This document shows, piece by piece, positions 2,597-51,459 of a DNA stretch of 64,000 nt; within the stretch, counting starts at the first letter, position 1, and each line of letters starts with the position of its first letter. Both the position numbers and the translations under genes were made by a program. The stretch is taken from NCBI RefSeq assembly GCF_004361735.1, contig NZ_SNVV01000001.1:310001-374000 (forward strand). Reading direction: 5' to 3'. The notes below the pieces were generated by a model. It was not told the origin of the DNA, searched no databases, and worked only from the letters and a program-made list of their open reading frames with translations. The DNA comes from Azoarcus indigens (GTDB taxonomy: Bacteria; Pseudomonadota; Gammaproteobacteria; Burkholderiales; Rhodocyclaceae).

Positions 2597-2669
2597 TTTC
2601 CTCCTGACTCGCCCAGTGCCTCGCCCCGTTTCCCCTCCGCCCTCCATCCTCCACCTCCGGGAGCCCACG

Positions 2670-3761: not shown

Positions 3762-4098
3762 GCGGGTGTGGGGCGAGCGGCGGCGGTCACCGCAAGCCGC
3801 CGCGCCGCTCGCGTTCAGCGCGCCCCACCCAGCGGTCTTATTGATCTGGCAACCGAATGCCCGGCAGCCATCCAGGCCGCGCCCTTAGCCAGCCATGTAG
3901 GCCCCAGGGCAAGCGGCCTCTCTCGCTTGCCTGCCGGGTTCATGAACGCTGCCGCCTCGGCGCAAGGCCGTCCCACACCAGCGGCAGCCTGCACGCAGGC
4001 CGACACATTTCCCGAGCTGGAGCACAGCTCACGCTCCGTGTCTCGCCCCCTGGGTCTTGCCCCCCGTTACCCCGTACCTACCCGCCCACGAGGTTCCC
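3762..4098. other. Intergenic stretch between monooxygenase and aldolase genes
   Basis: 337 bases without a supported gene. Apart from the hairpin at its left end I see no RNA gene, repeat or convincing promoter. Open frames crossing it have no ribosome site and are continuations of shadow frames. Confidence 0.6.
3764..3830 (+). terminator. Large GC-rich hairpin after the monooxygenase gene
   Basis: TGGGGCG (3769-3775) pairs with CGCCCCA (3821-3827), and GCGAGCGGC with GCCGCTCGC inside it, giving a long imperfect stem starting 3 bases after the stop codon. There is no U-run after it, so it could equally be a transcript-stabilising or Rho-assisted end. Confidence 0.35.
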
Positions 4099-8978: not shown

Positions 8979-9551
8979 TCAGCTCCAGAGATTGGGCACC
9001 ACGTCGCTGGCGTAGCCAGAGATGAAGGTCCTGGCCTCGCCGCTGGCGGCATCGAAGACGTGGCGGGAGACGCGGCCGATGTTGCCGCCGTAGACATGGA
9101 TGCTGATGGACACCTGGTCGTCCAGCGCATTCTCGACGATGTGCACGTCGCCGATGCTGGGCGACACCGCGGTGACGCCGCCGGCGCCGAGCACGCCGGC
9201 CTCCACCTCGCGGTAGCTGCCGTCGGCCTGGTGGTCGAAGCGGCGTTCGCGCTCCCGGCCGCGCAGCACGCCGACCACGCCCCACACCGTGTGGTCGTGC
9301 AGCGGCGTCTTCTGGCCGGGGCCCCAGACGAAAGAGACCACCGAGAACCGCTCCTGCGGGTCGGCGTACAGCAGGTACTGCTGGTAGTACTGCGGATGCG
9401 GCTGGGCGAAGGCTTCGGGCAGCCAGTCGTCCTTGGCGACGAGCTGGCCGACCAGCTCGCGCCCCTGCTCCAGGATGCGGGGCTCTGTGGCGCCGCTTTC
9501 GACCAGCCGGGTCAGGGATACGACGAATTCGCGCAAGGGGTTCAGCGACAT
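8979..9551 (-). CDS. 3-mercaptopropionate/cysteine dioxygenase-type thiol dioxygenase
   Basis: 190 aa, small cupin. The non-haem iron site is visible as His85 and His87 (LHDHTVWGVVGVL) and His137 (GDVHIVEN). The C-terminal stretch SISIHVYGGNIG with Tyr154 and the FISGY ending match my recollection of bacterial 3-mercaptopropionate dioxygenases (the Pseudomonas PA2602 type) better than mammalian cysteine dioxygenase. The enzyme adds O2 to a thiol to give a sulfinate. It is the last gene of the minus-strand array, 200 bases after its upstream neighbour, so it may have its own promoter. The thiol substrate is inferred from family resemblance. Confidence 0.85.
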   Translation of the reverse strand: MSLNPLREFVVSLTRLVESGATEPRILEQGRELVGQLVAKDDWLPEAFAQPHPQYYQQYLLYADPQERFSVVSFVWGPGQKTPLHDHTVWGVVGVLRGRERERRFDHQADGSYREVEAGVLGAGGVTAVSPSIGDVHIVENALDDQVSISIHVYGGNIGRVSRHVFDAASGEARTFISGYASDVVPNLWS

Positions 9552-9751
9552 GATGGTTCTCCGGTGAGTTCGGAAGGAATGAAGTAGGGAGGACGCCCTG
9601 AGAGGTAACGAGGATGTCCGGGTCGCGCGGACCCGACCCCGTTCGCGCGCTCCGGCCGTGGCCGGGCTGTCGCTGGCATGGGTGCCGGCATGGGCGGCGG
9701 CGCCGGAACGATCCCTGTTGTCATGGATATCCGCCGCTTTGCCATCTGGCT

Positions 9752-10714
9752 TCAGCGCCCGCCGGCGAAGCGCAGCCCGGCGAGCAGGGTGCGCAGCACC
9801 GGCACCGCGATGCCGTGGGCATCGGCGATGGCGATGGGCGCCGCCAGCAGCGCGTCCGTCTCCAGCCGGCGGCCGGCGAGGCGGTCCTGCAGCATGGAGG
9901 TGCGCACCGCGCCCACCAGCTCGGCGCGCGCCACCCGCTGCTGCGGCGTGGTCGGCGAGGGGCAGCCCTCGGCGGCGGCGATGCGGGCGATCTCCGCCAT
10001 GCCGGCGAGCAGCACTTCGCGCGTCTCCCGGGTGCCGGCGAGTTCGCCGACGGTGGCGCCGGTGATGGCGGAGAGCGGGTTCAGCGTGGCGTTGCCCATC
10101 AGCTTTCCCCACACCTCGGCGCGGATGTCGGCGCGCTGTTCGGCGGGGATGCCGGCGGCCTGCCAGCCGGCGACCAGCGCCGCCAGCGCCGGGTCCGCCG
10201 CGGCATCGCCGACCTGGGCGGCCTGGGCGACCTGCCCAGCAGCCGCCGGACGGCCGCACAGGTAGCGGTCGCTGCCGGTGCGGCGCACCCGGATACGGCC
10301 GGGCGCAGTGCGCTCCACCGCGTGGTGCACCACCACCGCCACCGTGCGCGCCAGCGGCGGCGCGCCGCCGTCGGCCTCCTTGTGTGTCCACCACCAGGGC
10401 ACGCCGTTCTGCAGGAACACGAACTGGCTGCGTCCGTCGCCGAGCGCGGCCAGCGCCGGCAGCAGCGGCGGCAGGTCGTGGGATTTCACCGTCACCACCA
10501 CCTGGGCGTAGGGGCCGCGCAGTTCGTCCACCGCCAGGAAGCGCGCCGGCACCTGCCAGGCTTCGTCGCCCTCGGCTGCCACCGCCTGCGGCAGGCCCTC
10601 GCGGCCCCGGCCGGCGATGTGCACCTCGTTGCCGGCCCGCGCCAGCCGGCCGCCGACGAACAGCCCCAGGCTGCCGCCGCCGACGATGGCGATGCGCCGC
10701 GCCTCAGTCGGCAT
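9752..10714 (-). CDS. Ketopantoate reductase-like (PanE/ApbA family) oxidoreductase
   Basis: 320 aa. An N-terminal Rossmann motif (GGGSLG, residues 12-17) and the catalytic lysine Lys204 in EVWGKLMGNATLNPLS are those of 2-dehydropantoate 2-reductases. The ATG at 10714 lies 11 bases inside the end of the upstream aldolase gene, so the two are translationally coupled. In catabolic clusters PanE-like enzymes reduce various 2-oxo or 3-oxo acids with NADPH, and coupling to an aldolase suggests it acts on that enzyme's substrate or product rather than in pantothenate synthesis. The exact reaction is unknown. Confidence 0.8.
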   Translation of the reverse strand: MPTEARRIAIVGGGSLGLFVGGRLARAGNEVHIAGRGREGLPQAVAAEGDEAWQVPARFLAVDELRGPYAQVVVTVKSHDLPPLLPALAALGDGRSQFVFLQNGVPWWWTHKEADGGAPPLARTVAVVVHHAVERTAPGRIRVRRTGSDRYLCGRPAAAGQVAQAAQVGDAAADPALAALVAGWQAAGIPAEQRADIRAEVWGKLMGNATLNPLSAITGATVGELAGTRETREVLLAGMAEIARIAAAEGCPSPTTPQQRVARAELVGAVRTSMLQDRLAGRRLETDALLAAPIAIADAHGIAVPVLRTLLAGLRFAGGR

Positions 10715-11465
10715 AGCCGGGCAGCTCCCTGTCCAGCCGGCGGCGCAGCGCCGCCCACTCGCGCTTGCCCGAGGGGAAGAAGCTGGCCTTGGAACCGTAG
10801 ATGGCCTGCGCCTGTTCATGGCTGCGGGCGATGACCTCGTCCGGTAGCTGGCGCAGCGGCACGCCGGCCGACTGGGCGGCGAGCTGGAAGCGGCAGGCGC
10901 GCTCCAGCCGCCAGATGCGGGCGAAGGCTTCGCCCATGTCTCGGCCCAGCGTCATCGTGCCGTGGTTGCGCAGGATGACGGTGTGCCTGTCGCCGATGTT
11001 GGCCAGCAGGTCGGCGCGCTCGCGCTCGTCCAGCACCACGCCCTGGAAGTCGTGGTAGGCGATCTGGCCATGCACCATCAGCGCCATCTGGGTGAGCGGC
11101 AGCAGGCCTTCTTCCTGCGTCGCCACCGCCACGCCGTCGCGACTGTGCAGGTGGATCACGGCGGCGGCGTCCGGCACCGAGGCATGGATGGCGCCGTGGA
11201 TGACGATGCCGGCGGGATTGACGTCGCCCTCGCCGGCGGTGACGCGGCCGTCCAGGTCCACCTCCAGGATGCTGGAGGCGGTCACCTCCTCGTACAGCAG
11301 GCCCAGCGGGTTGATGAGGTAGCGGTCATGGCGGCCGGGCACCCGGTAGGTGACATGGGTGGCGAGCAGGTCGGTCCAGCCGAACAGATGGATGAGACGG
11401 CAGGCGGCGGCGAGATCCACGCGGGCGGCGTGAATGGCTGCGGCCGGGTCCAGCGGTGCGTTCAT
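10704..11465 (-). CDS. Class II aldolase/adducin-family protein
   Basis: 253 aa from the ATG at 11465; longer open frames upstream are proline/alanine-rich and unconvincing. Metal-binding residues are HLH at 105-107 and His168 in RNHGT. A start of MNAP is shared with the aldolase at 4099, but the two proteins are otherwise divergent in length and in the active-site region. It overlaps the PanE-like gene by 11 bases. It may perform a retro-aldol cleavage or decarboxylation in the pathway encoded by the array. Substrate not deducible. Confidence 0.83.
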   Translation of the reverse strand: MNAPLDPAAAIHAARVDLAAACRLIHLFGWTDLLATHVTYRVPGRHDRYLINPLGLLYEEVTASSILEVDLDGRVTAGEGDVNPAGIVIHGAIHASVPDAAAVIHLHSRDGVAVATQEEGLLPLTQMALMVHGQIAYHDFQGVVLDERERADLLANIGDRHTVILRNHGTMTLGRDMGEAFARIWRLERACRFQLAAQSAGVPLRQLPDEVIARSHEQAQAIYGSKASFFPSGKREWAALRRRLDRELPGYAD

Positions 11466-11806
11466 GGTGTGCTCCCTGCGGGCGTGGCGGCCCGCGGCTG
11501 AGTGGATGAGAGACAGGGAATAGGCGGATGCGGGCGGGCTGCCGAGGGTTGCGGCATGAAGGGCGGGCGATGGCGGGCCGGACGGCGGAGCCGCCCTCCC
11601 CCGCTCACCGGCCATCCGGCTTGCGCAGCGGACGAGGGCCGCAAGGCCGGGGCAGCGCCGGACGGCGCGCTCACCGCGGCGCGGGGCCGGCACGCGCCGC
11701 CCCTGCCGTTGCAGCCGGACGCTGGCAGCGCCAGCAGCACCGCCACGCCCACTCCGTCCCCCTCGTCACCCCGCGCTACCGTCCGCATCGCCCGCGCCTT
11801 CGCGGC
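11466..11806. other. Intra-array gap between Bug receptor and aldolase
   Basis: 341 bases with no supported gene. It contains short GC-rich inverted repeats (for example GGCGG..CCGCC near 11583-11595) but no T-run and no AT-rich promoter. The gap suggests the downstream aldolase/PanE-like pair could be a separate transcript from the Bug-monooxygenase part. Confidence 0.45.
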
Positions 11807-12811
11807 TTACTCGATCTTGGCGCCGGAGTCGGCCACCACCTTGCCCCAGCGCGCGCTGTCTTCCTGGATCAGCCTGGCGAAGGCTTCCGGCGTGGTGCTT
11901 TCCACCTCCAGGCCGGAGGTGGCCAGGCGCGTCTTGGTCTCCGGCTCGGCGGCGATGCGTACCAGCTCCTTGTTCAGCTTCTCCACGATGGCCTTGGGCG
12001 TGGCCGCCGGCACTACGATGCCGAACCAGGACGACACCTCGTAGCCCTTCAGCCCGGCTTCGGCGGCGGTGGGCACCTCCGGCAGCACCGGAGAGCGCTT
12101 GGCACTGGTGATGGCCAGGCCCTTCACCTTGCCGGCCTTCACCTGCGGCGCCAGCACCGTCAGCGTGTCGAAGGCGGTGTTCACATCGTTGCCCAGCAAG
12201 GCGGTGACCGCCGGCGCGCTGCCCTTGTAGGGCACGTGCAGCAGCTGGGTGCCGGTGAGGCTGGCGAACAGCTCGCCGGAGAGGTGGCACAGCGTGCCGT
12301 TGCCGCAGGAGGAATAGGTGATCTTGCCCGGCTCGGCCTTGGCCAGCGCCACCAGCTCCTGCAGGGTGTTGGCCGGCGTCGCCGCGCTGGCGGCCACCAC
12401 GTAGGGCACCGAGGCCACCACCGACACCGGCGCGAAATCCTTTACCGGGTCATAGCGCAGATCCTTGGCCAGGTGCGGCAGCAGCGTGAGCTGGCCGGCC
12501 GGCGCCAGCGACAGGGTGTAGCCATCCGCCGCCGACTTGGCGACGAACTCCGCCGCGATGGCGGTGCCGGCGCCCGGCTTGTTCTCCACCACCACCGGCT
12601 GGCCGAAGCTGCCGGCGAGCTTCTCGGCATAGAAGCGGGCGACGGTATCCGCCGCCCCGCCCGGCGGGAAGGGCACGACCAGCTTCAGCGGCTTGGTCGG
12701 GTAAACGGCTTCAGCCCGCGCCGCGAACGGCGTCAAGGCGACGCTGCCCAGCACGAGGCCGCACAGCGCGGCGTGGTGCAGGCGGAAGGAAGAGAAGAGG
12801 CCTTTCGACAT
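11807..12811 (-). CDS. Bug-family (TctC) periplasmic solute receptor 1
   Basis: 334 aa. A cleavable signal peptide (hydrophobic core ending ...PFAARA near residue 33) precedes the characteristic Bug start YPTKPLKLVVPFPPGGAADTVAR. Bug proteins bind carboxylates in the periplasm and deliver them to TctA/TctB-type permeases. It follows the monooxygenase gene by about 40 bases in the same direction. Together with receptor 2 at 14102 it brackets that gene. The window has only one TctAB pair, so both receptors may feed one permease or one may act only as a sensor. Confidence 0.9.
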   Translation of the reverse strand: MSKGLFSSFRLHHAALCGLVLGSVALTPFAARAEAVYPTKPLKLVVPFPPGGAADTVARFYAEKLAGSFGQPVVVENKPGAGTAIAAEFVAKSAADGYTLSLAPAGQLTLLPHLAKDLRYDPVKDFAPVSVVASVPYVVAASAATPANTLQELVALAKAEPGKITYSSCGNGTLCHLSGELFASLTGTQLLHVPYKGSAPAVTALLGNDVNTAFDTLTVLAPQVKAGKVKGLAITSAKRSPVLPEVPTAAEAGLKGYEVSSWFGIVVPAATPKAIVEKLNKELVRIAAEPETKTRLATSGLEVESTTPEAFARLIQEDSARWGKVVADSGAKIE

Positions 12812-12851
12812 GGATGACTCCGGAAAAACACGAGGTAGGAAAACAAGATCG

Positions 12852-14009
12852 TCAAAACGCGGCGAATGCCTCGGCCGGCAGGGGTTCCGCCAGCCGCGCG
12901 CGCACCCGCGGCAGCAGTTCGCGGCCGTAGGCCACCGCGTCGGCCAGCGGCTCGAAGCCGCGCACCAGGAAATGGCTGACGCCCAGGCGGTGGTAGGCCA
13001 GCAGCGCGTCGGCCACCTGCTCCGGCGTGCCCACCAGGGCGGTGGAGTTGCCGCCTATGCCGGTGCTGGCGGCCGCGCCGGAGGCGGCGCCGGTGAGCGC
13101 GGTGATACCGGTCCACAGGCAGCTGTCCAGCACCTCGCCGCGCTCGGCGTAGGCCAGCAGGCGGCGCGAGCCTTCGTTCTGCGGGCCGGCGCTCTTGGCG
13201 GCGGCCGGCTTGGCAGCCAACTTTGCCGCCGCCAGCCGCCCGCGCACGCCATCCAGGATGCGTTCGGCGCGCGCCCAGGCTTCGTCCTCGGTGGCGCCGA
13301 GGATGGGCCGCAGCGACAGCGAGAAGCGCAGCGCCTCGGCGCGGCCGTGGCGGGCGGCGGTGGCGCGCACCGCGGCGATCTGCTCGGCGATGCCGGCCAG
13401 CGGCTCGCCCCACATCATGAACACGTCGGCATGCTTGCCGGCCACCTCCAGCGCGGCGGCGGAAGAGCCGCCGAAGAAGATGGGGATGTGCGGCTGCTGC
13501 AGCGGCCGCGCCTGGGTCACATGGCCCTTGACGCGGTAGTGGCGGCCGTCGAAGTCGAAGGGCTCACTGCGCGTCCACGCCAGCTTCAGCACCTCCAGGT
13601 ATTCGTCGGTGCGGGCGTAACGCTCGTCATGGCCGAGGAAATCGCCGTCGCGCTGCTGCTCGGCGTCGTTGCCGCCGCTGACGATGTTGATGGCCGCGCG
13701 GCCATCGCTGAAGTGGTCCAGCGAGGCGAACTGGCGCGCCGCCACCGTGGGCGCCACCACGCCCGGCCGGTGCGCCACCAGCAGGCCGAGGCGGCGGGTT
13801 TCGTGGGCGGCGTGGGCGGCGATCTGCAGGCCGTCCGGCGCGGCGCTGTGGTAGGCGATCAGCGCGCGGTCGAAGCCGGCGTGCTCCTGCGCCCGCGCGC
13901 AGGCGCCCAGGTAGGCCTTGTCCACCAGCGGGCCGCTGGCGGGCTGGATCTCGCTCGCTTCCTGGTGGGAGAGGAAGCCGATGAATTCGACGGCATGCGG
14001 CCTGGACAT
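12852..14009 (-). CDS. SsuD-like flavin-dependent monooxygenase
   Basis: 385 aa, luciferase-like family. It shares with the gene at 2670 the blocks AHRPGVVAPT, NIVSGGND and GDFLGHDERYARTDEYLEV, typical of SsuD-like enzymes. An Ala/Lys-rich low-complexity insertion (about residues 235-250) distinguishes it. It lies between two Bug receptor genes with short gaps (40 and 92 bases), so it is probably co-transcribed. Such enzymes use FMNH2 and O2 to break C-S bonds or oxidise a related centre. No dedicated flavin reductase is visible. Substrate unknown. Confidence 0.85.
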   Translation of the reverse strand: MSRPHAVEFIGFLSHQEASEIQPASGPLVDKAYLGACARAQEHAGFDRALIAYHSAAPDGLQIAAHAAHETRRLGLLVAHRPGVVAPTVAARQFASLDHFSDGRAAINIVSGGNDAEQQRDGDFLGHDERYARTDEYLEVLKLAWTRSEPFDFDGRHYRVKGHVTQARPLQQPHIPIFFGGSSAAALEVAGKHADVFMMWGEPLAGIAEQIAAVRATAARHGRAEALRFSLSLRPILGATEDEAWARAERILDGVRGRLAAAKLAAKPAAAKSAGPQNEGSRRLLAYAERGEVLDSCLWTGITALTGAASGAAASTGIGGNSTALVGTPEQVADALLAYHRLGVSHFLVRGFEPLADAVAYGRELLPRVRARLAEPLPAEAFAAF

Positions 14010-14101
14010 GGCGGGTTCCTGGGCTGGCGGGGGAAGGAAAGCGGAAGCGCTGCGGGGCGCCGGCCGCCGGCGTGGAGACGGCAGCCGGCGGGCGATCGCG
14101 C

Positions 14102-15091
14102 TCAGTCGAACTGGGTGCCGGACTCGCGCACGACCTTGCCGTACTTGTCGTAGTCGGTACGCACCTGGGCGGCGAAGGCGGCCGGGGTGCTGGGCCAGGC
14201 GTCCAGGCCCTGCGCCGCCAGCTTCTCCTTCACCGTCGGCGAGGCGGCGGCCTTGGCGATCTCGGCGTTCAGGCGCTCGACGATGGCCGGCGGCGTGGCG
14301 GCGGCCACGTTGAGGCCGAACCAGGAGGTGACTTCGAAACCCGGGTAGCCGGCCTCGGCCACGGTGGGCACGTCCGGCAGCAGCGGCGAGCGCTCGCGGG
14401 AGGCGATGGCCAGGCCCTTCAGCTTGCCGCCCTTGATCTGCGGCGCCAGGATGGTGAGCGTATCCACCGCCAGGTTCACATTGCCGCCGATGACCGCGGT
14501 GACCGCCGGCGCGCTGCCCTTGAAGGGCACGTGCAGGATGTCGGTGCCGCTGGTGAGGCGGAAGTACTCGCCAGCCAGATGGATGATGGTGCCGCTGCCG
14601 GAGGAGGAGTAGCTGAACTTACCCGGCGCCGCTTTGGCCTGCGCCACCAGCCCCTTGAGGTCGGTCACCGGCACGTCGTTGTTGGCGGCGATGACCACGC
14701 CGGTATAGGCCAGCAGCGACACCGGGGCGAAGCTCTTGAAGGGGTCGAACTTGAGGTTCTTGGCGATGTGCGGCAGCACGGTGAGCTGGCCGGTGGGCAC
14801 CAGGTTCAGGGTGTAGCCGTCGGCCGGGCCATTGGCGACGAATTCGGCGGCGATGGCAGTGCCGGCGCCCGGCTTGTTCTCCACCACCACCGGCTGCTTC
14901 AGCGATTCGCTGAGGGCGTCGGCATAGATGCGGCCCACGGTGTCGGCGGCGCCGCCCGGCGGGTAAGGCACGATGAGCTTGAGCGGCTTGCTCGGCCAGT
15001 TGTCGGCGGCGGCGGCGAAGGGCAGCGCGAGGGCGACGGCGGCCAGCAGCGGCGTGGCCAGGCGGCGCAGCGAGGGGAAGGCGGTGTTCAT
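14102..15091 (-). CDS. Bug-family (TctC) periplasmic solute receptor 2
   Basis: 329 aa; the ATG at 15091 gives a standard signal peptide (hydrophobic LLAAVALALPFAAAA) followed by NWPSKPLKLIVPYPPGGAADTVGR. An ATG nine codons upstream is less likely. The protein is clearly paralogous to receptor 1: SGSGTIIHLAGEYFR here and a matching SCGNGTLCHLSGELFA there line the ligand pocket. The pocket differences suggest distinct or graded ligand preference. It lies between the enoyl-CoA hydratase-like and monooxygenase genes on the same strand. Confidence 0.9.
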   Translation of the reverse strand: MNTAFPSLRRLATPLLAAVALALPFAAAADNWPSKPLKLIVPYPPGGAADTVGRIYADALSESLKQPVVVENKPGAGTAIAAEFVANGPADGYTLNLVPTGQLTVLPHIAKNLKFDPFKSFAPVSLLAYTGVVIAANNDVPVTDLKGLVAQAKAAPGKFSYSSSGSGTIIHLAGEYFRLTSGTDILHVPFKGSAPAVTAVIGGNVNLAVDTLTILAPQIKGGKLKGLAIASRERSPLLPDVPTVAEAGYPGFEVTSWFGLNVAAATPPAIVERLNAEIAKAAASPTVKEKLAAQGLDAWPSTPAAFAAQVRTDYDKYGKVVRESGTQFD

Positions 15092-15161
15092 GCGGGACGT
15101 CTCCGGGTGGGGATGCATGGGTTTGTTTCCGGCGCGGATCAGTGGCTCGGTGGATCAGCGG

Positions 15162-15899
15162 CTAGCGGCCGGCGAAGCGCGGCGTGCGCTTCTCGGCGAA
15201 GGCGGCGATGCCCTCGCGGAAGTCTTCGGAGGCGTTGATTTCCTCGATGCCGGCGCGGGCGTGGGCCGCCAGTTCGGTCGGCCCCTTGGGCAGCACCTGG
15301 CCGACGAAGCGCTTCAGCAGCGTGGTGACGAGCGGCGCGTTGGCGGCGATCTGGGCGGCGAGTTCGCGCGCCACCTCCAGCTGCTGGCCCACCGGCACCA
15401 CCCGGTTCACCAGCCCGGCCTCGTAGGCGCGCCGGGCGTCGATGGAGCCGCCCAGCAGCAAGAGCTCCATCGCCAACTTGTGCGGGATGCGCGCCGCCAG
15501 CGAGCTGATGAGCCCGCCGGAGAAGCCGACCTTGGCTTCCGGGTAGGAGAACACCGTGTTGTCGGCGGCAACGGCGAGGTCGGCGAACTGCACCAGCACC
15601 AGCCCGCCGCCCACCACCAGCCCGGCGGTGACGGCGATGATGGGTTTCTCCACCTGCACGCCGACGCCGGGAATGGCCTTCCACAGGTCGTGCGGGATGT
15701 CGCGCAGGTCGGCGCCGGCGGTGAAGGCGCGGTCGCCGGCGGCGGCTAGGATGGCGACGCGGTCGTCGCTGGCGTCGAAGCGCCGCCAGGCGGCGTTCAG
15801 CTCGCGCACCACGTCGTGGGTGATCACGTTGTACTTGTCGGCGCGGTCGATGAGGATTTCGGCGACGCCCTTGTTCGAGGTGTAGCGGACGGTGCTCAT
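15162..15899 (-). CDS. Enoyl-CoA hydratase/isomerase-family protein lacking one catalytic Glu
   Basis: 245 aa, crotonase fold. The CoA-thioester oxyanion region AFTAGADL (59-65) and GLVVGGG (93-99) are present. In classical hydratases a Glu follows the GGG block (the Glu144 position of the rat enzyme); here the residue is Val101. The second Glu (Glu164 equivalent) is kept as Glu121 in YPEAKVGF. With one acid missing, a plain hydration is unlikely; isomerase, decarboxylase, hydrolase or C-S/C-C lyase activity is possible. It follows the CoA-ligase and GrdB-like genes, so it probably acts on the CoA ester formed there. Confidence 0.85.
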   Translation of the reverse strand: MSTVRYTSNKGVAEILIDRADKYNVITHDVVRELNAAWRRFDASDDRVAILAAAGDRAFTAGADLRDIPHDLWKAIPGVGVQVEKPIIAVTAGLVVGGGLVLVQFADLAVAADNTVFSYPEAKVGFSGGLISSLAARIPHKLAMELLLLGGSIDARRAYEAGLVNRVVPVGQQLEVARELAAQIAANAPLVTTLLKRFVGQVLPKGPTELAAHARAGIEEINASEDFREGIAAFAEKRTPRFAGR

Positions 15900-15991
15900 G
15901 CTCTGTTCTCTTGTGTGCGGCCCCGCCGCCTGGGCGGCGGAGCGTTCATCGGGGGCGGATTGAGGCCGCCTGGCGGCCGGTCGGCATCGGC

Positions 15992-16951
15992 TCAGCGCAC
16001 GCTCTCCACGTCGCGGCCCAGGGTGGCCACCCGCAGTTCGCGGGCGGTGACGCGGGCGGCCTCGGCTTCGGCGCGGCGGCGCTCCAGTTCTTCGGCGCTG
16101 AGGCGGGCGGGGTTGGAGTAGTCCAGCTTCCAGCTCGCGTCCGCTGCCCAGCGCAGCGGCGACTGCACGGTGGTGCGCGCCGCCGGGGCGCGCTCCAGCA
16201 CCTTCAGCGCGAGCTCCAGCGTGGCCTCCTGCGAGGCGGCATCGCCCGGCCGGCCGGCGGCGTTGCCCAGCGGAAAGTCGGAAAACAGCAGCCGCGGCAC
16301 GCCGACGTACTCGACGATGTCCCGCGCCGCGCCCAGCACCACGGTGCTGATGCCGGCGGCTTCGAGCTCGCGCGCCACCAGGCTCAGCGTCTGGTGGCAG
16401 ATCGGGCAGTTGGGCACCAGCAGCGCGGCATCCACGCCATCGGCGCGGCAGGCGGCGACGATCTCCGGCGCGTCCACCTCCAGCGTGTGGCGCTGGCTGC
16501 GGTTGGTCGGCGCGCCGAAGAAGCGCGGCGCGAGTTCGCCGATGCGACCGACCGCCGCCGCACGGCGCAGCGCCGGCAGCGGGAACCAGCAGCCGCTGTC
16601 GCCCAGGTCGGCGTGCTTGCGGTCTATGCCGACGTGGGCGATGCGCAGGTCGTGGTCGATGGCGGTGTCGCCGTCATAGACGCGGTAGAACTTGGCGGCG
16701 GCGTTGTAGGGCGCGCCCGGCCCCTGCTCGCCCTTGTCCGGCTGGTAGGGCGCGGCAGTGGTGAGCAGGGCGACGCGGCTCTGCGCCAGCGGCTTCTTCA
16801 GCGGCGCGAAGGGCACGTCCAGGTAGTGCGCCCAGACGTAAGGCGTGTCGTAGCCCAGCGCCAGGTACCAGGCGCGGGTGCGCTGGATGTAGGCCACCGG
16901 CCGGTCGAACTCGGGGGCGAAGCCGAGGCTGTTGTCGTCGGCCGCGCTCAT
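15992..16951 (-). CDS. GrdB/PrdB-family reductase subunit with Cys instead of selenocysteine
   Basis: 319 aa from the ATG at 16951 (AGAGG ribosome site); an in-frame ATG at 17029 also has a possible site (GAAGG) and would add 26 unconserved residues. The body matches the selenoprotein B family of glycine/sarcosine/betaine/D-proline reductases: AIDHDLRIAHVGID (about 97-110), FPLPALRRAAAVGRIGELA, and the redox centre GVDAALLVPNCPICHQT where the family normally has Sec. Here Cys182 and Cys185 form CxxC followed by His186. The family cleaves C-N bonds reductively. In this aerobic-looking organosulfur array its role is unknown; reductive cleavage of a C-S or S-S bond is a hypothesis. Confidence 0.75.
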   Translation of the reverse strand: MSAADDNSLGFAPEFDRPVAYIQRTRAWYLALGYDTPYVWAHYLDVPFAPLKKPLAQSRVALLTTAAPYQPDKGEQGPGAPYNAAAKFYRVYDGDTAIDHDLRIAHVGIDRKHADLGDSGCWFPLPALRRAAAVGRIGELAPRFFGAPTNRSQRHTLEVDAPEIVAACRADGVDAALLVPNCPICHQTLSLVARELEAAGISTVVLGAARDIVEYVGVPRLLFSDFPLGNAAGRPGDAASQEATLELALKVLERAPAARTTVQSPLRWAADASWKLDYSNPARLSAEELERRRAEAEAARVTARELRVATLGRDVESVR

Positions 16952-17030
16952 GCCGACCTCTGCCCCCTCTCCGCCGGCCCCTCGGAGGGAAGCAAGCGGC
17001 CCTGCGCCGTCGGGCGTGCTCGGTCTCATC

Positions 17031-18419
17031 TCAGCCCTTCCCCGCGATCTCGATCAGCTTGGCCTTGGCGCCGGTGCGCGGCAGGCTGCCGAAGGGCAGC
17101 ACCTCGACCTGCGGCCGGAAGGTGAGCAGCTCGCGGATGCGCTGTTCGATGGCGGCGCCGATGGCGGCCCATTCGGATGCCGGCGTGCCCTCGCCCGCCT
17201 CCACCGCCAGCCGCAGCGGCGGTTCGACGCGCGGCGGCGGCGCGTCCAGGCGGATGCGCAGCTCGCCGGAGACCTTGGGGCGGAACTGGGCGACGACGCT
17301 CTGGATGGCGGCCGGATACACCTTCACGCCCTTGATCGCCAGCATGTCGTCCACCCGGCCGACGATTTCCATGCGGGTGCCGAAGTGGCCGCAGCCGGGG
17401 CATTCGCCGACATGGATCCTGAGGATGTCGCCGGTGGCGTTGCGGAAGGACGGCGCCGCCTCGTATTCCAGCGCGGTGTGGATGGCCTCGCCCACCGCGC
17501 CGTCCTTCAGTTCCAGCGGCGCCTTGCTGTCGGGGTCCACCAGGTCGTAGCGGAAGCAGTAGTCCTCGGCGAGGTAGTGCATGCCGTGGGAGTGCTCGCT
17601 GTCGCAGGTGATGGTGCCGTTGTGCCAGGCGCCGGCGGTGGCGTCGAACACCTTGGCGCCGTAATGCTCCTTGACGCGCTGGCGGAACAGCGGCTGGCTG
17701 GCGCCCGGCTCGCCGGAGCAGTAGATGACCTCGATGCCCAGCGCGCCGACCGGCTTGCCGATCTCCTTGGGCGCGCGCTCGATCAGCTGGTTCACCATCG
17801 ACGGCGTGGCGAACAGCACCCGCGGCCGGGTCAGCTCGATGTAGCGCAGGATCTTGGGCACGCCGCCCTCGGCGCCCACCGCCACCGGCCGCGCGCCATA
17901 GGCTTCCAGCGCCTGCACATAGGTGATGCCGGCCAGCCACAGCGACAGGCCAAAGGCGTGGAAGGTGGTGTCGCCCGGGCGGATGCCAGCGACGCGGAAC
18001 ATGCGGCCGAGCACTTCGTAGGTGATGTCCAGGTCCTTGCGGCTGAACACATAGAACGTGGGCGTGCCGGTGGTGCCCGAGGTGGCAGCGAGGTGGATCG
18101 CGTTTTCCGGCGCGGTGGTCAGGTGCAGGCCCAGCGGATGGCCGTAGCGTTCCAGCGAAGCGTCCTGCGACTCGCGGTGGCGGGTCTTGTCCATGAAGGC
18201 CGGCAGGCGGCGGAAGTCGTCAAACGTGCGGATGTCGTCCGGCGACTGGATGCCGGCCTCGATGAAGCGCTGGCGGAAGTAGTCCTCGTTGCGCCACACG
18301 TAGCGGATCTGGCGCTGCAGCTTGTCCCAGCGGCGGGCGTTGAGAATGGCGAGGTATTCGCCGGGGTCGCGGGTGGGAACGTCGAAATCATGGAGTGCGT
18401 GGATGGCGTGCGTGCTCAT
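17031..18419 (-). CDS. Phenylacetate-CoA ligase-like (PaaK family) acyl-CoA synthetase
   Basis: 462 aa, ANL superfamily. The AMP-binding loop TSGTTGTP is at 113-120, and a C-terminal block GRVDDMLAIKGVKVYP is the hinge and A8 motif of PaaK-like ligases. A zinc-ribbon-like CPGCGHFGT segment precedes it, as in several PaaK relatives. It would activate a carboxylate to its CoA thioester using ATP. One base separates its stop from the longest possible start of the GrdB-like gene, so they are probably coupled. It sits directly after the TctAB permease genes, so its substrate is likely the imported acid; whether aromatic or aliphatic is unknown. Confidence 0.88.
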   Translation of the reverse strand: MSTHAIHALHDFDVPTRDPGEYLAILNARRWDKLQRQIRYVWRNEDYFRQRFIEAGIQSPDDIRTFDDFRRLPAFMDKTRHRESQDASLERYGHPLGLHLTTAPENAIHLAATSGTTGTPTFYVFSRKDLDITYEVLGRMFRVAGIRPGDTTFHAFGLSLWLAGITYVQALEAYGARPVAVGAEGGVPKILRYIELTRPRVLFATPSMVNQLIERAPKEIGKPVGALGIEVIYCSGEPGASQPLFRQRVKEHYGAKVFDATAGAWHNGTITCDSEHSHGMHYLAEDYCFRYDLVDPDSKAPLELKDGAVGEAIHTALEYEAAPSFRNATGDILRIHVGECPGCGHFGTRMEIVGRVDDMLAIKGVKVYPAAIQSVVAQFRPKVSGELRIRLDAPPPRVEPPLRLAVEAGEGTPASEWAAIGAAIEQRIRELLTFRPQVEVLPFGSLPRTGAKAKLIEIAGKG

Positions 18420-18547
18420 GGTCGTCCTGCGTTTTTTATCGATGTGGCTGGCATTGCCGCGCCAGCGGCGGGCGCGGCAATGCGGGAGAAGGAGACGGCG
18501 GGAAGGCGGGATCGGAGGTGGCGCGCGGGGCCGGCGGCCCCGCCGTG

Positions 18548-20050
18548 TCAGTCCTCGGCGAAGGCCACCTCCCGGGTCGCGCGCAGCCGCGGCAGCGTCA
18601 TCACCACGATCAGCGCGAGCGCGATCAGCAGCAGCGTCAGGCTCAGCGGCCGGGTGAAGAACACGCTGGCATCGCCGCGGGACAGCAGCATGGCGCGGCG
18701 CAGGTTCTCCTCCATCATCGGCCCGAGCACGAAGCCCAGCAGCAGCGGCGCCGGCTCGCAGCGCAGCTTGATGAAGAGGTAGCCGAGCAGGCCGAAGGCC
18801 ACGGTGAGCAGCAGGTCGAACAGGCTGTTGTTCACGCTGAAGGCGCCGATGCAGCAGAACAGCAGGATGGCCGGATAGAGGATGCGGTACGGCACCGACA
18901 GCAGCTTCACCCACATGCCCACCAGCGGCAGGTTGAGCAACAGCAGCAGCAGGTTGCCCACCCACATGCTGGCGATGACGCCCCAGAACAGCTCCGGCCG
19001 CTCGGTCATCACCTGCGGGCCGGGCACGATGCCGTGGATCATCATCGCGCCTATCATCAGCGCCATCACCGCGTTGGACGGCAGGCCCATCACCAGCAGC
19101 GGGATGAAGGAGGTCTGCGCGCCGGCGTTGTTGGCCGACTCCGGCGCCGCCACGCCCTCGATGGCGCCCTTGCCGAAGCGCGAGGAGTCCTTCGCCAGCC
19201 GCTTCTCGATCATGTAGGCGGCGAAGGAGCTCAGCATCGCCCCGCCGCCGGGCAGCACGCCCAGCACCGCGCCCAGGCCGGAGCCGCGCAGCACCGGCTT
19301 CCACGCCTGGCGGTAGTCGTCGCGGGTGGGCAGCACGCTGCCGACCTTGGCCACCGTCACGTCGCGCTTCTGGTCGTGCTCCAGGTTGGCGATGATCTCG
19401 CCGATGCCGAAGATGCCCATGGAGATGACGACGAAGTCGATGCCGTCGGCCAGCTGCGGCAGGCCGAAGGTGAAGCGCTCCTCGCCGGAATTCACGTCGG
19501 TGCCCACCATGCCCAGCAGCAGGCCGAGCAGCGTCATGGCGATGGCCTTGACGATGTCGCCCTGGGCCAGCACCACCGCCGCCACCAGGCCCAGCACCAT
19601 CAGCGAGAAGTATTCCGCCGGGCCGAACTTGAGCGCGAACGCTGCCAGCGGCGTGGCCGCGGCGGCCACCACCAGCGTCGCCACCGTGCCGGCGAAGAAG
19701 GAGCCGATGGCGGCGATGCCCAGCGCGGCGCCGGCGCGGCCCTTCTTCGCCATTGCATGGCCGTCTATGCAGGTCACCACCGAGGACGATTCGCCCGGCA
19801 GGTTCACCAGGATGGCGGTGGTGGAGCCGCCGTACTGCGCGCCGTAGTAGATGCCGGCGAGCATGATCAGCGCTGCCGCTGGCGTCAGGCCGTAGGTCAC
19901 CGGCAGCAGCATGGCGATGGTCGCCACCGGGCCGAGGCCGGGCAGCACGCCCACCAGCGTGCCCAGGGTGACGCCGACGAAACAGTAGAAAACGTTGTTC
20001 CAGCTCAGCGCCGCATCGAAACCCAGCGCCAGGTGAGACAGCAGTTCCAT
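18548..20050 (-). CDS. tctA: Tripartite tricarboxylate transporter large permease TctA
   Basis: 500 aa, about 12 membrane helices. The TctA signature regions are clear: GVLPGLGPVATIAMLLPVTY near residues 39-58 and YGAQYGGSTTAILVNLPGE near 69-88, with a second GVLPGGGAMLSSF motif in the C-terminal half. It is the ion-coupled transport subunit that works with TctB and a Bug receptor. It starts 13 bases downstream of the tctB stop. Two Bug receptor genes lie further along the array. Confidence 0.93.
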   Translation of the reverse strand: MELLSHLALGFDAALSWNNVFYCFVGVTLGTLVGVLPGLGPVATIAMLLPVTYGLTPAAALIMLAGIYYGAQYGGSTTAILVNLPGESSSVVTCIDGHAMAKKGRAGAALGIAAIGSFFAGTVATLVVAAAATPLAAFALKFGPAEYFSLMVLGLVAAVVLAQGDIVKAIAMTLLGLLLGMVGTDVNSGEERFTFGLPQLADGIDFVVISMGIFGIGEIIANLEHDQKRDVTVAKVGSVLPTRDDYRQAWKPVLRGSGLGAVLGVLPGGGAMLSSFAAYMIEKRLAKDSSRFGKGAIEGVAAPESANNAGAQTSFIPLLVMGLPSNAVMALMIGAMMIHGIVPGPQVMTERPELFWGVIASMWVGNLLLLLLNLPLVGMWVKLLSVPYRILYPAILLFCCIGAFSVNNSLFDLLLTVAFGLLGYLFIKLRCEPAPLLLGFVLGPMMEENLRRAMLLSRGDASVFFTRPLSLTLLLIALALIVVMTLPRLRATREVAFAED

Positions 20051-20063
20051 GTCGTTCCGCCGC

Positions 20064-20564
20064 TCAAGCCGGCAGCACGGGCAGCGGCAGGCCCAGGCCG
20101 TAGGCGAATACCGCCGAGCCGAAGAAGGCCAGCGCAGCGCTCAGGCCCAGCAGTTCGCGGATGCGCACTTCCTGGTGGGCATAGCCGCTCAGCAGCGTCA
20201 GCGCCACCGTCGCCAGCACCAGGCCTTGGTGCGGCGCCAGCAGGGCGAAGGCGAGCACGCCAGCGCCGACGAACAGCGCCGGCCGCAGCCCCGCCAGCCG
20301 GCGCAGGCCGGCCGCGCCGCGGCCCAGCGCCTCGGCCACCTCGTGCGCTTCATTCGCCGCCACCTGCAGGCGCAGGCTGCGCAGCCCGACCACCAGCCCC
20401 AGCAGCACCAGGATGCCGCCCAGCACCAGCGGGAAATAACCCGCGCCCATGCGCATGGTGGTGCCTATGGGATAGGAGGAAGCGATATGGGCTCCAGCCA
20501 GGCCAAAAAGAACGAAAAGGCCACCGGCCAGCGCGTCCTGCCGATTGAGTATTCTGATTTTCAT
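20064..20564 (-). CDS. tctB: Tripartite tricarboxylate transporter small subunit TctB
   Basis: 166 aa, four membrane helices. The start MKIRILNRQDALAGGLFVLFG and the FPLVLGGILVLLGLVVG helix fit the TctB family. I chose ATG 20564; the longer frame runs through an AT-rich region with non-protein-like sequence. It is the first gene of the minus-strand array, immediately downstream of the 546-bp AT-rich control region. Confidence 0.88.
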   Translation of the reverse strand: MKIRILNRQDALAGGLFVLFGLAGAHIASSYPIGTTMRMGAGYFPLVLGGILVLLGLVVGLRSLRLQVAANEAHEVAEALGRGAAGLRRLAGLRPALFVGAGVLAFALLAPHQGLVLATVALTLLSGYAHQEVRIRELLGLSAALAFFGSAVFAYGLGLPLPVLPA

Positions 20565-20700: not shown

Positions 20701-20944
20701 ACCACCGCCTGCCGCGCATCGCCACAACCGGCGCGATGAGATGCGGCAAGTCGGGTGACGCAAAGTTATCACCGCGCGGATAGCGCCCAAATACGGATTT
20801 TGGCGTTGTAATCCACAAATTCAGAATTCATCCGCGCCGCCCCTTTCTTTTCAATCACCCATATTTCTGACCTTATCGTTATTGGTGAATAAGGGCCGGC
20901 TCTTGCTTTTCCGGAATTAAATCCGGCGCGGGCAGTGCCATGCC

Positions 20945-21023
20945 ATTCATCGATTGGAGAAGGTTTATTTGGCGGCGGGTATTCATCGATCCATATATCG
21001 ATCCCTATTTTTCTTATATCGAT
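20945..21023. repeat. Cluster of four ATCGAT sites in two repeat classes
   Basis: ATCGAT occurs at 20949, 20985, 20997 and 21018. The first two are extended as ATTCATCGAT and the last two as ATATCGAT. The spacings are 36, 12 and 21 bases. The cluster ends 87 bases before the molybdoenzyme start and could be a multi-site operator. Confidence 0.4.
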
Positions 21024-21110
21024 AAGGCAGGCGGCACCATTACTCTGGCCGGCTCCCACTTAGCCGTCGCCGCCATGCCCGCGCACCACGCGCGGCAGAA
21101 GAAGAAAGAA

Positions 21111-23459
21111 ATGCCCGCCCAAACCCGCTACACCGCCAGCCACTGGGGCCTGTACGCCGCCAGCGCCGACGGCCGCACGCTGCAGCCGCACGCCGGCGAC
21201 CCCTACCCCTCGCTGCTCGGCCAGGACATGCTCGCCGCCTACCGCTCGCCGCTGCGCATCCAGCGCCCGGCCGCCCGCGCCGGCTGGCTGGCGCGCATGC
21301 GCGGCGAGGGTGGCAGCGCCGGGGACGACCGCGAGCGCCGCGGCAGCGAGGCCTTCGTCGAACTGGAGTGGGAAGAAGCGCTGGACCTCGCCGCGCACGA
21401 GCTGCAGCGGGTGCGCAAGCACCACGGCAACGCCGCCATCTTCGGCGGCTCCTACGGCTGGGCCAGCGCCGGCCGCTTCCACCATGCGCAGAGCCAGGTG
21501 CATCGCTTCCTCAACAGCATCGGCGGCTATGTGCGCCATGTGGACAGCTACAGCCTGGGCGCCGGCCGCGCCCTGCTGCCGCACCTGGTGATGCCGATGG
21601 ACGAGTTGATGGCGCAGCATCACGACTGGAACGTGCTCGCCGCCCACACCCGGCTCTTCGTCGCCTTCGGCGGCGTGCCGGCCAAGAACGCCCAGGTCGG
21701 CGCCAGCGGCGCCTTCGAGCACCGCTGCCGGCCGGGCCTGGCGGCGCTGGCGGCCAAGGGCTGCCGTTTCGTGAACTTCAGCCCGGTGGCGGACAACCTG
21801 GACGCGCCGGCGGAGGCGGTGGAATGGATCCCCATCCGCCCCAACAGCGACACCGCGGTGATGCTGGCGCTGGCTCACGGCCTGATCGCCGCCGGCCGCC
21901 ACGACGCCGCCTTCCTCGCCAGCCACTGCGTCGGCTTCGAGCGCTGGCGCGACTACCTCTTCGGCGCCGACGACGGCATCGTCAAAGACGCCGACTGGGC
22001 AGCCGACCTCTCCGGCGTGCCGGCCGAACGCCTGCGCCGGCTGGCGCAGGAGATGGCGGCGCAGCGCACGCTGATCAACTGCGCCTGGGCGTTGCAGCGC
22101 GCCGAGCACGGCGAGCAGCCTTTCTGGGCGAGCATCGCGCTGGCCGCGGTGCTGGGCCAGATCGGCCTCCCCGGCGGCGGCTTCGCCCTCGCCTACGGCC
22201 CGCTGAACCTGATGGGCAGCCCGCACGCCCGCGTGCCCGGCCCCACCCTGGCGCAGGGCCGCAATGGCGTGGGCGCCTACATCCCGGTCGCCCGCCTCAC
22301 CGACATGCTGGAACAGCCGGGGGAAGCCTTCGACTACAACGGCCAGCGCCTCGTCTACCCCGACATCCGCCTCGTCTACTGGGCCGGCGGCAACCCCTTC
22401 CACCATCACCAGGACCTCAACCGCCTGGTGCGCGCCTGGAAACGGCCGCAAACCATCATCGTCCACGAGCAGTTCTGGAACGCCCATGCCCGCATGGCCG
22501 ACCTGGTGCTGCCGGCCACCGCCGCGCTGGAGCGCGACGACATCGGCTTCTCCACCCGGGAGCGCCATGTGGTGGCGATGAGCCGGCTGGCCGAGCCGCC
22601 CGGCGAGGCACGCGACGACTATGCCATCTTCGCCGCCCTCGCCCGCCGCCTGGGCACCGATGCCGTCTTCACCGAAGGCCGCGACGCCGCCGAATGGCTG
22701 CGCCACCTCTACACCGAGGCCGCCGCCAAGGCCGAATTGCGCGGCAGCCGCTGGCCGGACTACGACGCCTTCCGCGCCGCCGGCCTGCTGGACCTCGCCG
22801 CGCTGGAGCCGCAGGCGCCGGTGGTGATGCTGGCCGCCTTCCGCGCCGATCCGGCAGCGCACCCGCTGCCCACGCCCAGCGGCCGCATCGAGATCCACTC
22901 CGCCACCATCGCCGGCTTCGGCTATGCCGACTGCCCCGGCCACCCGGTGTGGCGCGAGCCGCGGGAATGGCTGGGCGCGCCCGCCGCCGCCGAATTCCCG
23001 CTGCATTTGATCTCCGACCAGCCCGTAGCCCGCCTGCACAGCCAGCTGGACCACGGCCCCGCCAGCCAGGCGCGCAAGCTGCACGGCCGCGAGCCGGCCC
23101 ACCTCAACCCGGCGGATGCCGCCGCCCGCGGCATCGGCGATGGTGATTTGCTGCGCATCCACAACCGCCGCGGCGCCTGCCTCGCCAGCGCCCGCCTGGA
23201 CCCGGCGGTGATGCCCGGCGTGCTGCGCCTGTCCACCGGCGCCTGGTACGACCCGCTGCGCCTGGGCGAGGGCGACGCCGCCAACCTGGAGAAGCACGGC
23301 AACCCCAACGTGCTGACGCGCGACATCGGCAGTTCCCGCCTCGGCCAGGGCTGCGCCGCCCACAGCTGCCTGGTGGAAGTGGAGCGCTACCTCGGCGAAG
23401 CACCGCCGCTGAGCGCCCACACGCTGCCGCGCCTGATTCCTGCGGCGGGCACAGGCTGA
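21111..23459 (+). CDS. Biotin/DMSO-sulfoxide-reductase-family molybdoenzyme (BisC-like)
   Basis: 782 aa; ATG 21111 follows a purine-rich GAAGAAAGAA, whereas ATG 21075 has no site. There is no N-terminal Fe-S cysteine motif and no signal peptide, as in cytoplasmic BisC. FGGSYGWASAGRFHHAQ (111-127) carries the expected Mo ligand Ser119 of the DMSO reductase family. Molybdopterin-guanine-dinucleotide contacts such as GGNPFHHHQDLN and the C-terminal SDQPVARLHSQLDHG are conserved. It would reduce a sulfoxide or N-oxide. It is divergent from the TTT array and shares its control region, suggesting a role with the same organosulfur compounds. Confidence 0.9.
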   Translation: MPAQTRYTASHWGLYAASADGRTLQPHAGDPYPSLLGQDMLAAYRSPLRIQRPAARAGWLARMRGEGGSAGDDRERRGSEAFVELEWEEALDLAAHELQRVRKHHGNAAIFGGSYGWASAGRFHHAQSQVHRFLNSIGGYVRHVDSYSLGAGRALLPHLVMPMDELMAQHHDWNVLAAHTRLFVAFGGVPAKNAQVGASGAFEHRCRPGLAALAAKGCRFVNFSPVADNLDAPAEAVEWIPIRPNSDTAVMLALAHGLIAAGRHDAAFLASHCVGFERWRDYLFGADDGIVKDADWAADLSGVPAERLRRLAQEMAAQRTLINCAWALQRAEHGEQPFWASIALAAVLGQIGLPGGGFALAYGPLNLMGSPHARVPGPTLAQGRNGVGAYIPVARLTDMLEQPGEAFDYNGQRLVYPDIRLVYWAGGNPFHHHQDLNRLVRAWKRPQTIIVHEQFWNAHARMADLVLPATAALERDDIGFSTRERHVVAMSRLAEPPGEARDDYAIFAALARRLGTDAVFTEGRDAAEWLRHLYTEAAAKAELRGSRWPDYDAFRAAGLLDLAALEPQAPVVMLAAFRADPAAHPLPTPSGRIEIHSATIAGFGYADCPGHPVWREPREWLGAPAAAEFPLHLISDQPVARLHSQLDHGPASQARKLHGREPAHLNPADAAARGIGDGDLLRIHNRRGACLASARLDPAVMPGVLRLSTGAWYDPLRLGEGDAANLEKHGNPNVLTRDIGSSRLGQGCAAHSCLVEVERYLGEAPPLSAHTLPRLIPAAGTG

Positions 23460-23599: not shown

Positions 23600-24184
23600 A
23601 TGAACACCAACCCGCCCCCGCCGCGCGGCGGCATCGTGGATGCCAACTACCGCTTCGTCGCCGCCTACCAGGAGGTGAATGCCCGCATCGCCCAGCGCCA
23701 GCAGGCGCTGGCGCTCTATGTGTCGCTGACCCTGGGCCTGCTGGCGGTGCTGGTGGCGATGCGGCCGCCGCGCGACGGCGCCGGCCTGCCGGTGGAATGG
23801 CTGCTGCCGGGCTTCCCGGTCACCTCCGCCTGCCTGGTGTTCCTGCACTACAAGGCGGAGCGCGCGCTGACCAACCTGCGCCGCTTCCTCGCCCGGCTGG
23901 AACGCCTGGGCGACGCCCACCTCGCCCTGCCCAGCTACAACACCGACCCGCGCTGGACCACCGGCGCCAACCGTGCCCGCCGCTATCACGACTATGCCTC
24001 CGCCACCCTGGTCGCCGCCGGCAACCTGCTCGCCCTCGCCGCCGCCCGGGGCGTGCATCCGGAGCGCATCGCCCTCAACCAGCCCATCTTCTGGATCGTC
24101 GCCGTCATCGGCCTGGGCTGCACCCTGGCCCTGCTGTGGATGCCGCGGCTGAGCTATCGGCCGGAGGGCGGGGCCGAGGCTTGA
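23600..24184 (+). CDS. Hypothetical four-helix membrane protein
   Basis: 194 aa; ATG 23600 follows CGGAG at 23586-23590. Predicted membrane helices lie at about 41-57, 69-86, 132-150 and 164-182, with a basic cytoplasmic-type segment (HYKAERALTNLRRFLARLERLGD) between helices 2 and 3. I do not recognise the family. The pattern of two helical hairpins around an amphipathic linker is found in several unrelated small-membrane families. It is 140 bases after the molybdoenzyme on the same strand and may be co-transcribed; nothing shows a functional link. Confidence 0.7.
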   Translation: MNTNPPPPRGGIVDANYRFVAAYQEVNARIAQRQQALALYVSLTLGLLAVLVAMRPPRDGAGLPVEWLLPGFPVTSACLVFLHYKAERALTNLRRFLARLERLGDAHLALPSYNTDPRWTTGANRARRYHDYASATLVAAGNLLALAAARGVHPERIALNQPIFWIVAVIGLGCTLALLWMPRLSYRPEGGAEA

Positions 24185-51406: not shown

Positions 51407-51459
51407 GATCAGCCCGCTTGAAACACGCAGCTTTTCAGGTCTTTCGTCGAGGCCCAACC

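Follow-up and report, generated by a model that had tools for sequence, protein, structure and literature searches.

Conserved eleven-gene array with a PrdB/GrdB-like protein in Azoarcus indigens: a probable operon for CoA-dependent catabolism of a sulfur-related carboxylate

The sequence analysed here, called the window, is a stretch of 64,000 nucleotides from Azoarcus indigens (RefSeq assembly GCF_004361735.1, contig NZ_SNVV01000001.1, positions 310,001 to 374,000 of the forward strand). Its minus strand holds an array of eleven genes at 8979–20564, and Pfam and NCBIfam scans bore out the place, strand and order that the original prediction, made from the sequence alone, had given them. Read from 20564 to 8979, the genes encode TctB, TctA, a PaaK-like coenzyme A (CoA) ligase, a protein related to the D-proline and glycine reductase components PrdB and GrdB (hereafter the GrdB-like protein), a crotonase-fold protein, a Bug receptor, an SsuD-like luciferase-like monooxygenase (LLM), a second Bug receptor, a class II aldolase, an ApbA-type reductase and a thiol dioxygenase. 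The array is a conserved operon, probably CoA-dependent and probably directed at a sulfur-related carboxylate; the more specific reading, that it is a catabolic operon in which a short, sulfur-bearing carboxylate is activated with CoA and degraded, is given a probability of about one half. A search of titles and abstract beginnings of open-licence papers found no paper describing this gene set.

RESULTS

The array is conserved in other genomes

A family-wide search covered 249 genomes, 14 of which, counting the window's own, carried a close GrdB-like gene, and a scan of named genomes covered the loci of the best 80 of 576 GrdB-like relatives. The results showed that pieces of the array recur, in much the same order, in 15 loci from 15 genomes besides the window. 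A search for conserved neighbourhoods of the GrdB-like gene had been proposed as a check with the original prediction, and its outcome makes a chance assembly very unlikely. Four of the 15 loci (L146, L155, L157 and L158) are truncated by contig ends, and the identity thresholds for presence were chosen after earlier matches were known. On this basis, the PaaK-like ligase and the crotonase were each present in 13 loci, Bug receptors 1 and 2 each in 11, TctA and TctB each in 10, the aldolase in nine, the ApbA-type protein in eight, the dioxygenase in six and the LLM in five. Gene order and strand mostly agree, the variants being a Bug1 gene that precedes the GrdB-like gene (L066, L069, L153), extra genes inserted within the array (L066, L156) and the absence of the aldolase (L108). 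The hosts include Rhodocyclaceae-type betaproteobacteria and the gammaproteobacterium Azomonas; the named ones are Pseudothauera rhizosphaerae, Oryzomicrobium sp., Azomonas agilis and a Pseudomonadaceae metagenome-assembled genome (MAG). The proposal of a single pathway is thus backed by gene content and order kept across genomes.

Intergenic gaps in the array range from -11 to 128 bp, except for 341 bp between Bug2 and the aldolase and 200 bp between the ApbA-type gene and the dioxygenase. Two or three abutting separate operons with breaks at these two gaps would also account for the absence of the aldolase, ApbA-type and dioxygenase genes from several array loci, but such a division is unlikely, given that the aldolase and ApbA-type genes come after the core in seven loci (L066, L069, L141, L146, L147, L148, L153) and the dioxygenase follows directly in five (L066, L069, L146, L147, L153). 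In L141 the dioxygenase gene is found on the opposite strand, in the genome of L148 it comes some 10 kb further on, and in Azomonas it is located away from the array. Consensus scanning of the array gave no sigma-70-like promoter (0.6 in shuffled sequences) and four terminator-like sites (4.8 in shuffles), so that the scan is uninformative on transcripts.

In a tree of 63 GrdB-like rows, built after removal of two duplicates (L149, L152) and of 27 among the 48 rows of the CoA-transferase type, the 16 array rows require three label changes, and the window sequence clusters with four other array rows (support 100/96). The array is accordingly either ancient, with later losses, or the product of repeated assembly or transfer.

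The GrdB-like protein often tracks a CoA-activating gene

Neighbours were counted in 90 loci, with L074, L077 and L127 (no GrdB-like gene called) and the split L142 excluded. Among 88 labelled rows, 15 were array rows and 48 had a family III CoA-transferase directly downstream. At E ≤ 1e-20 the 48 transferase matches are all on the strand of the GrdB-like gene and no more than 300 bp downstream of it, and the 90 loci contain no further match at that threshold. Rows of this kind are mostly from Bradyrhizobium, the others being L067, L068, L072, L073, L093, L159, L111 (labelled Frankia) and L124 (a Bradyrhizobiaceae MAG); Pfam confirmed the transferase in L067, L072 and L037. With a ligase in the array and a CoA-transferase downstream elsewhere, the GrdB-like protein tracks a CoA-activating gene in both groups. 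GrdB-like protein, family III CoA-transferase and dioxygenase are consecutive in L067, L068, L072, L074 and L093, with an IclR gene between transferase and dioxygenase in L072 and L093, and in L034 the dioxygenase lies about 2 kb further on.

A PF03601 membrane protein was also seen near GrdB-like genes, at L034:11599-12600, where the dioxygenase is present too, and at L033:7496-8497; members of this family are often called sulfate exporters, which would fit sulfite release.

The GrdB-like protein has a CxxC motif that is probably UxxC in many distant relatives

The best NCBIfam model for the GrdB-like protein was that of PrdB, at a score below the curated cut-off (Table 1), and the name given in the original prediction shifts accordingly from GrdB towards PrdB. 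The CxxC motif of these families is present as CPIC, and C182, P183, C185, H186 and Q187 are invariant in a 30-row alignment of GrdB-like proteins. At 24 of 34 loci examined, the first Cys codon of CPxC is an in-frame TGA; these relatives are the more distant ones (30–51% identity). Nine of the remaining loci have Cys, including the likewise distant L013, and L017 has no such motif. The in-frame TGA is likely selenocysteine (Sec). When 42 genomes were sorted by form, a SelB match over the cut-off was present in 20 of the 22 with the TGA form and in 4 of the 19 others. G055, whose TGA form comes from a separate count alone, was also SelB-positive, and the two TGA genomes without a SelB match, G052 and G144, have a completeness of 84%. 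SelB is present in the window's genome too, yet its GrdB-like gene carries a Cys codon. A second, more distant GrdB-like group from Burkholderiales (L018-L032) was also observed, with an in-frame TGA and the motif U-P-x-C-T-C.

PF09338, the pyruvoyl-precursor partner, had no match in the window's genome, and 14 control genomes were equally silent. A PDB sequence search with the GrdB-like protein gave nothing meaningful (best E 0.82). Its AlphaFold model, built from 30 alignment rows, had a pTM of 0.80 and a mean pLDDT of 76.7. An Asp/Glu racemase-like fold, suggested by a strand-Cys-helix stretch, was not supported, as Foldseek with this model gave no PDB match at E ≤ 0.001. The reductive step that had been ascribed to the GrdB-like protein stays an argument from homology, and the search of open-licence papers found no published function for it and no role in aerobes for PrdB-type selenoproteins.

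A predicted 3-mercaptopropionate-type dioxygenase that co-occurs with the GrdB family in Burkholderiales

The solved chains nearest to the window dioxygenase are 4qma and 6xb9, both deposited as cysteine dioxygenase type I, and 3uss, deposited as 3-mercaptopropionate dioxygenase; 6xb9 we take to be the Azotobacter vinelandii 3-mercaptopropionate dioxygenase, with His90, His92, His142 and Arg168 presumably among its key residues. Identity to 6xb9 extends to 102 of 186 aligned positions, and His90, His92, His142, Ser155, His157, Tyr159 and Arg168 are all kept. The available text of PMC10966181 names Ser155-His157-Tyr159 as a triad of the enzyme. The thiol dioxygenase of the original prediction was thereby refined to an enzyme that is predicted from these residues to be of the 3-mercaptopropionate type; it is the sole PF05995 match in the genome.

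Among 300 Burkholderiales genomes, 57 had the dioxygenase (53 with strong matches), and these were 20 of 30 genomes with a GrdB-family gene versus 37 of 270 without one (Fisher p 1e-9, kinship uncorrected, as in the two tests that follow). Strong dioxygenase matches gave 19/30 versus 34/270 (p 3e-9), and close GrdB-like forms had the dioxygenase in 7/9 genomes (p 2e-4). Other sulfur genes stand beside the array at differing positions, namely a quad-rhodanese in seven and a BisC-type gene in three of the 15 loci, together with TauD-like genes in L141 and L156, the former locus having a DszC-like gene as well. An SsuA-type receptor is encoded in L066 (score below the cut-off) and in the window (score above it).

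The ligase, crotonase and LLM depart from their best-known relatives

TctA, TctB and TctC families are all present in the array, which makes up a tripartite tricarboxylate transporter. The ligase falls under the cut-off of the PaaK model for phenylacetate-CoA ligases. The crotonase has GGGLV where GGGCE is expected and keeps YPE, so that it lacks one Glu of the pair of an enoyl-CoA hydratase (rat Glu144/Glu164, in what we take to be the usual numbering); a typical crotonase in L148 has both Glu in the same alignment. The LLM, which had been predicted to be SsuD-like, belongs to the family, with 190–204 bits against the three best solved SsuD-type chains, but is not a true SsuD: its score is below the SsuD cut-off, and in an alignment judged by eye it has Ser/Arg at Arg226/His228 (presumed SsuD numbering) and Ala at Cys54.

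DISCUSSION

Proposed steps and their alternatives

For the breakdown of a sulfur-bearing carboxylate, we infer a substrate, an order of steps and a GrdB-like chemistry as follows. The substrate would be taken up by the Bug receptors and TctAB, a sulfoxide form perhaps being reduced by the divergent BisC-type enzyme, and the PaaK-like ligase would form its CoA thioester. The CoA-bound compound would then be processed by the crotonase with its single Glu and by the GrdB-like protein with its CPxC motif, in which Cys182 most likely would attack carbon or sulfur beside the C–S bond and Cys185 would resolve the intermediate, setting free a small thiol such as 3-mercaptopropionate. The dioxygenase would convert the thiol to the sulfinate, the carbon fragment would pass to the aldolase and the ApbA-like reductase, and in some relatives the quad-rhodanese may take the released sulfur.

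A simple thiol-disulfide reductase role for the GrdB-like protein, comparable to that of LpdA in Advenella and directed at dithiodipropionate or another organic disulfide, is very unlikely. The CPxC/UPxC motif is typical of thiol-disulfide chemistry, and the Sec form stands among UxxC redox proteins in the available part of PMC1088965; however, such a role needs no CoA activation, yet the link to CoA-activating genes is frequent, and nothing indicates a disulfide-bearing substrate.

Several observations weigh against a sulfur-bearing substrate or against the pathway as drawn. Of the 13 family genomes that carry the array, 8 have the dioxygenase and 5 lack it; when Azomonas, UBA5811 and the window are added, 11 of 16 array genomes have it and 5 do not. 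Of 35 further genomes with a GrdB-like gene, sorted by record title, the 18 from Bradyrhizobium have it in one case, and the 17 others in 15 (L066, L069, L108 and L141 being among the 17). Only 5/15 array loci keep the LLM, 25 of the 88 GrdB-like rows lack both the array and an adjoining CoA-transferase (some being cut by contig ends), and the GrdB-like model had no structural counterpart in the PDB by Foldseek at the threshold given above. The best solved relative of the ligase is 2-hydroxyisobutyryl-CoA synthetase (6hdw, 9e-44), and four loci encode a BenE benzoate-type symporter in the vicinity of the GrdB-like gene (assigned by Pfam in L067 and L037, and through clustering with L067 in L033 and L074), so that non-sulfur acids fit too. 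The core (TctAB, Bug receptors, ligase, GrdB-like protein and crotonase) might accordingly break down a sulfur-free carboxylate, for instance a branched hydroxy or aromatic acid, with the dioxygenase, LLM, rhodanese and S-oxide reductase as neighbours attracted into an organosulfur island. The missing dioxygenases (5 of 13 array genomes, 17 of 18 in Bradyrhizobium), the symporter and the ligase kinship speak for this explanation, which we nevertheless hold to be rather unlikely, as the place of the recurring sulfur genes varies from genome to genome and the quad-rhodanese is found in three of the four long array loci of dioxygenase-less genomes (L150, L151 and L156, not L154). The sulfur-bearing carboxylate of the original prediction keeps the dioxygenase type and the recurring rhodanese, S/N-oxide reductase, TauD-like and DszC-like genes in its favour, and has the gaps in dioxygenase and LLM occurrence and the unmatched desulfinase Acd against it.

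Desulfination without Acd

As far as the available text of PMC5373536 goes, Advenella mimigardefordensis DPN7 degrades 3-mercaptopropionate through the dioxygenase Mdo, CoA activation (SucCD) and Acd, and its cluster also holds a family III CoA-transferase and TctC receptors. No match to Acd (NF042439) at E ≤ 1e-100 was found in the window's genome among the 6 of 18 candidates scored (at most six per genome). Acd was over its cut-off in 2 of the 300 Burkholderiales genomes and reached E ≤ 1e-100 in three. Among the 57 dioxygenase-bearing genomes a single one (G103) was Acd-positive at that threshold, so these genomes seldom carry the desulfinase known from 3-mercaptopropionate degradation.

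The GrdB-like protein might then stand in for Acd, taking sulfite off the 3-sulfinopropionyl-CoA that the dioxygenase would supply together with the CoA-activating enzyme. The scarcity of Acd among dioxygenase-bearing genomes fits this idea, as do the five loci with GrdB-like, CoA-transferase and dioxygenase genes in a row, which resemble the CoA-transferase, Acd and Mdo set of Advenella minus Acd (PMC5373536). It is nonetheless improbable: Bradyrhizobium genomes with the GrdB-like gene mostly lack the dioxygenase, and 20 further dioxygenase loci, picked from the best of Burkholderiales, showed no GrdB-like gene, so that other ways of desulfination must exist. In these 20 loci, a family III CoA-transferase was found in seven, a second crotonase type in seven and a PIG3-type oxidoreductase cluster in six (in L202 the dioxygenase was missed by the gene caller and the PIG3 name was given from L199), and CoA-transferase, dioxygenase and crotonase occur together in six. 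Desulfination without Acd is thus a general question, for which the GrdB-like protein is one candidate among several.

The six loci (L199, L200, L204, L208, L212, L213) combine a family III CoA-transferase, a 3MDO-type dioxygenase and a divergent crotonase with no GrdB-like gene in the stretch; in L199, L200 and L208 the PIG3-type oxidoreductase joins this module, whose crotonase has neither usual Glu. An ADP-forming acyl-CoA synthetase adjoins an array-like crotonase at L212:3126-5234, L213:3069-5195 and L148:17154-19313, and in L212 and L213 it is also near the thiol dioxygenase.

Features in and around the array

Table 1. Genes of the array, from 20564 to 8979, and two genes beyond it (window positions)
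Feature	Position	Strand	Evidence
TctB, small membrane subunit, tripartite tricarboxylate transporter	20064..20564	-	PF07331 2e-14; start ATG at 20564
TctA, large membrane subunit	18548..20050	-	PF01970 4.7e-164
PaaK-like AMP-forming CoA ligase, 462 aa	17031..18419	-	TIGR02155 148 bits (cut-off 646); 6hdw 9e-44
GrdB/PrdB-like protein, 319 aa, motif VPN-C-P-I-C-HQ (Cys182, Cys185)	15992..16951	-	PF07355 5e-05; TIGR04483 94.3 bits (cut-off 300)
Crotonase-fold protein, one of two canonical catalytic Glu	15162..15899	-	PF00378 1e-42; motif comparison
Bug receptor 1 (TctC family)	14102..15091	-	PF03401 1.7e-68
SsuD-like flavin monooxygenase (LLM class)	12852..14009	-	PF00296 1.9e-71; TIGR03565 232.7 bits (cut-off 518)
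Bug receptor 2 (TctC family)	11807..12811	-	PF03401 1.1e-78
Class II aldolase/adducin-domain protein	10704..11465	-	PF00596 4.3e-45; NF005451 289 bits, above cut-off 207 (longer reading frame)
ApbA/PanE-like 2-oxoacid reductase	9752..10714	-	TIGR00745 154 bits (cut-off 141)
Thiol dioxygenase, predicted 3-mercaptopropionate dioxygenase type	8979..9551	-	4qma 9.5e-68; 6xb9 7e-62; residues kept
Divergent BisC-type molybdopterin S/N-oxide reductase	20940..23459	+	TIGR00509 895.5 bits, below curated cut-off 1017
194-aa protein, function not assigned	23600..24184	+	relatives (73% identical) follow BisC-type gene in L147, L148

Orthologues of the BisC-type gene adjoin the array in G323 and G378, where they are divergent, and on the same strand in L069. 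A second small organosulfur cluster lies at 306-4872 (+) of the window, with an SsuA-type receptor (TIGR01728, over the cut-off), an acyl-CoA-dehydrogenase-fold protein that is DszC-like by position and fold and has no NCBIfam match, and also a class II aldolase and an SsuD-like LLM, both of which cluster with array genes. A chemoreceptor with Cache domains at 6911-8839 (+), between both sulfur clusters, is a possible sensor of the same substrate. In L150 and L151 an aconitase X pair and a Bug receptor run divergently from the array (L150:14748-16420). Three consecutive tRNA-Val genes (anticodons CAC twice, TAC once) were found at 51332-51716 (-) of the window.

Comparison with known systems

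The array shares with the Advenella route a 3MDO-type dioxygenase, CoA activation and TctC-type receptors, but going by the figure legend of PMC5373536 the Advenella cluster is without the GrdB-like, crotonase, LLM, aldolase and ApbA-type genes, and Acd of Advenella has no counterpart matched in the window's genome. The 3,3'-thiodipropionate route of Variovorax paradoxus TBEA6, as described in the available text of PMC6370202, shares Mdo, CoA chemistry and enoyl-CoA hydratase-like proteins (needed for thiodipropionate use), and likewise TctC transport, according to what is accessible of PMC8102459; the main text of PMC6370202 has no word starting with reductase, luciferase or aldolase. Alkanesulfonate monooxygenase SsuD is of the same LLM family, whereas the window LLM lacks its Arg/His pair.

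With PrdB and GrdB the GrdB-like protein has sequence family and the UxxC/CxxC motif in common; it differs in its score under the PrdB cut-off, in Cys for Sec and in its context of CoA genes. Because this Cys form is encoded in a conserved operon of known enzyme types, together with genes for transport, CoA activation and thiol oxidation, the role of a PrdB-type family becomes testable, and relatives of the array exist in cultured strains, for instance Azomonas agilis DSM 375. Ocean surveys list PrdB-type selenoproteins as one of the prominent families, with 235 Sec forms of 'proline reductase PrdB' in the Global Ocean Sampling (GOS) data (PMC2398784) and 42 'PrdB' selenoproteins in the Sargasso Sea (PMC1088965), as far as the available parts of both papers go. 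Oxygen-tolerant PrdB/GrdB-like CxxC/UxxC proteins may, as a tentative suggestion, be an undescribed class that cleaves C–S (or C–X) bonds in CoA-activated carboxylates, and the marine selenoproteins might have the same chemistry. They come from surface-ocean samples and, in those same parts, belong to the same Pfam family and carry the UxxC motif, which suggests kinship with the GrdB-like protein.

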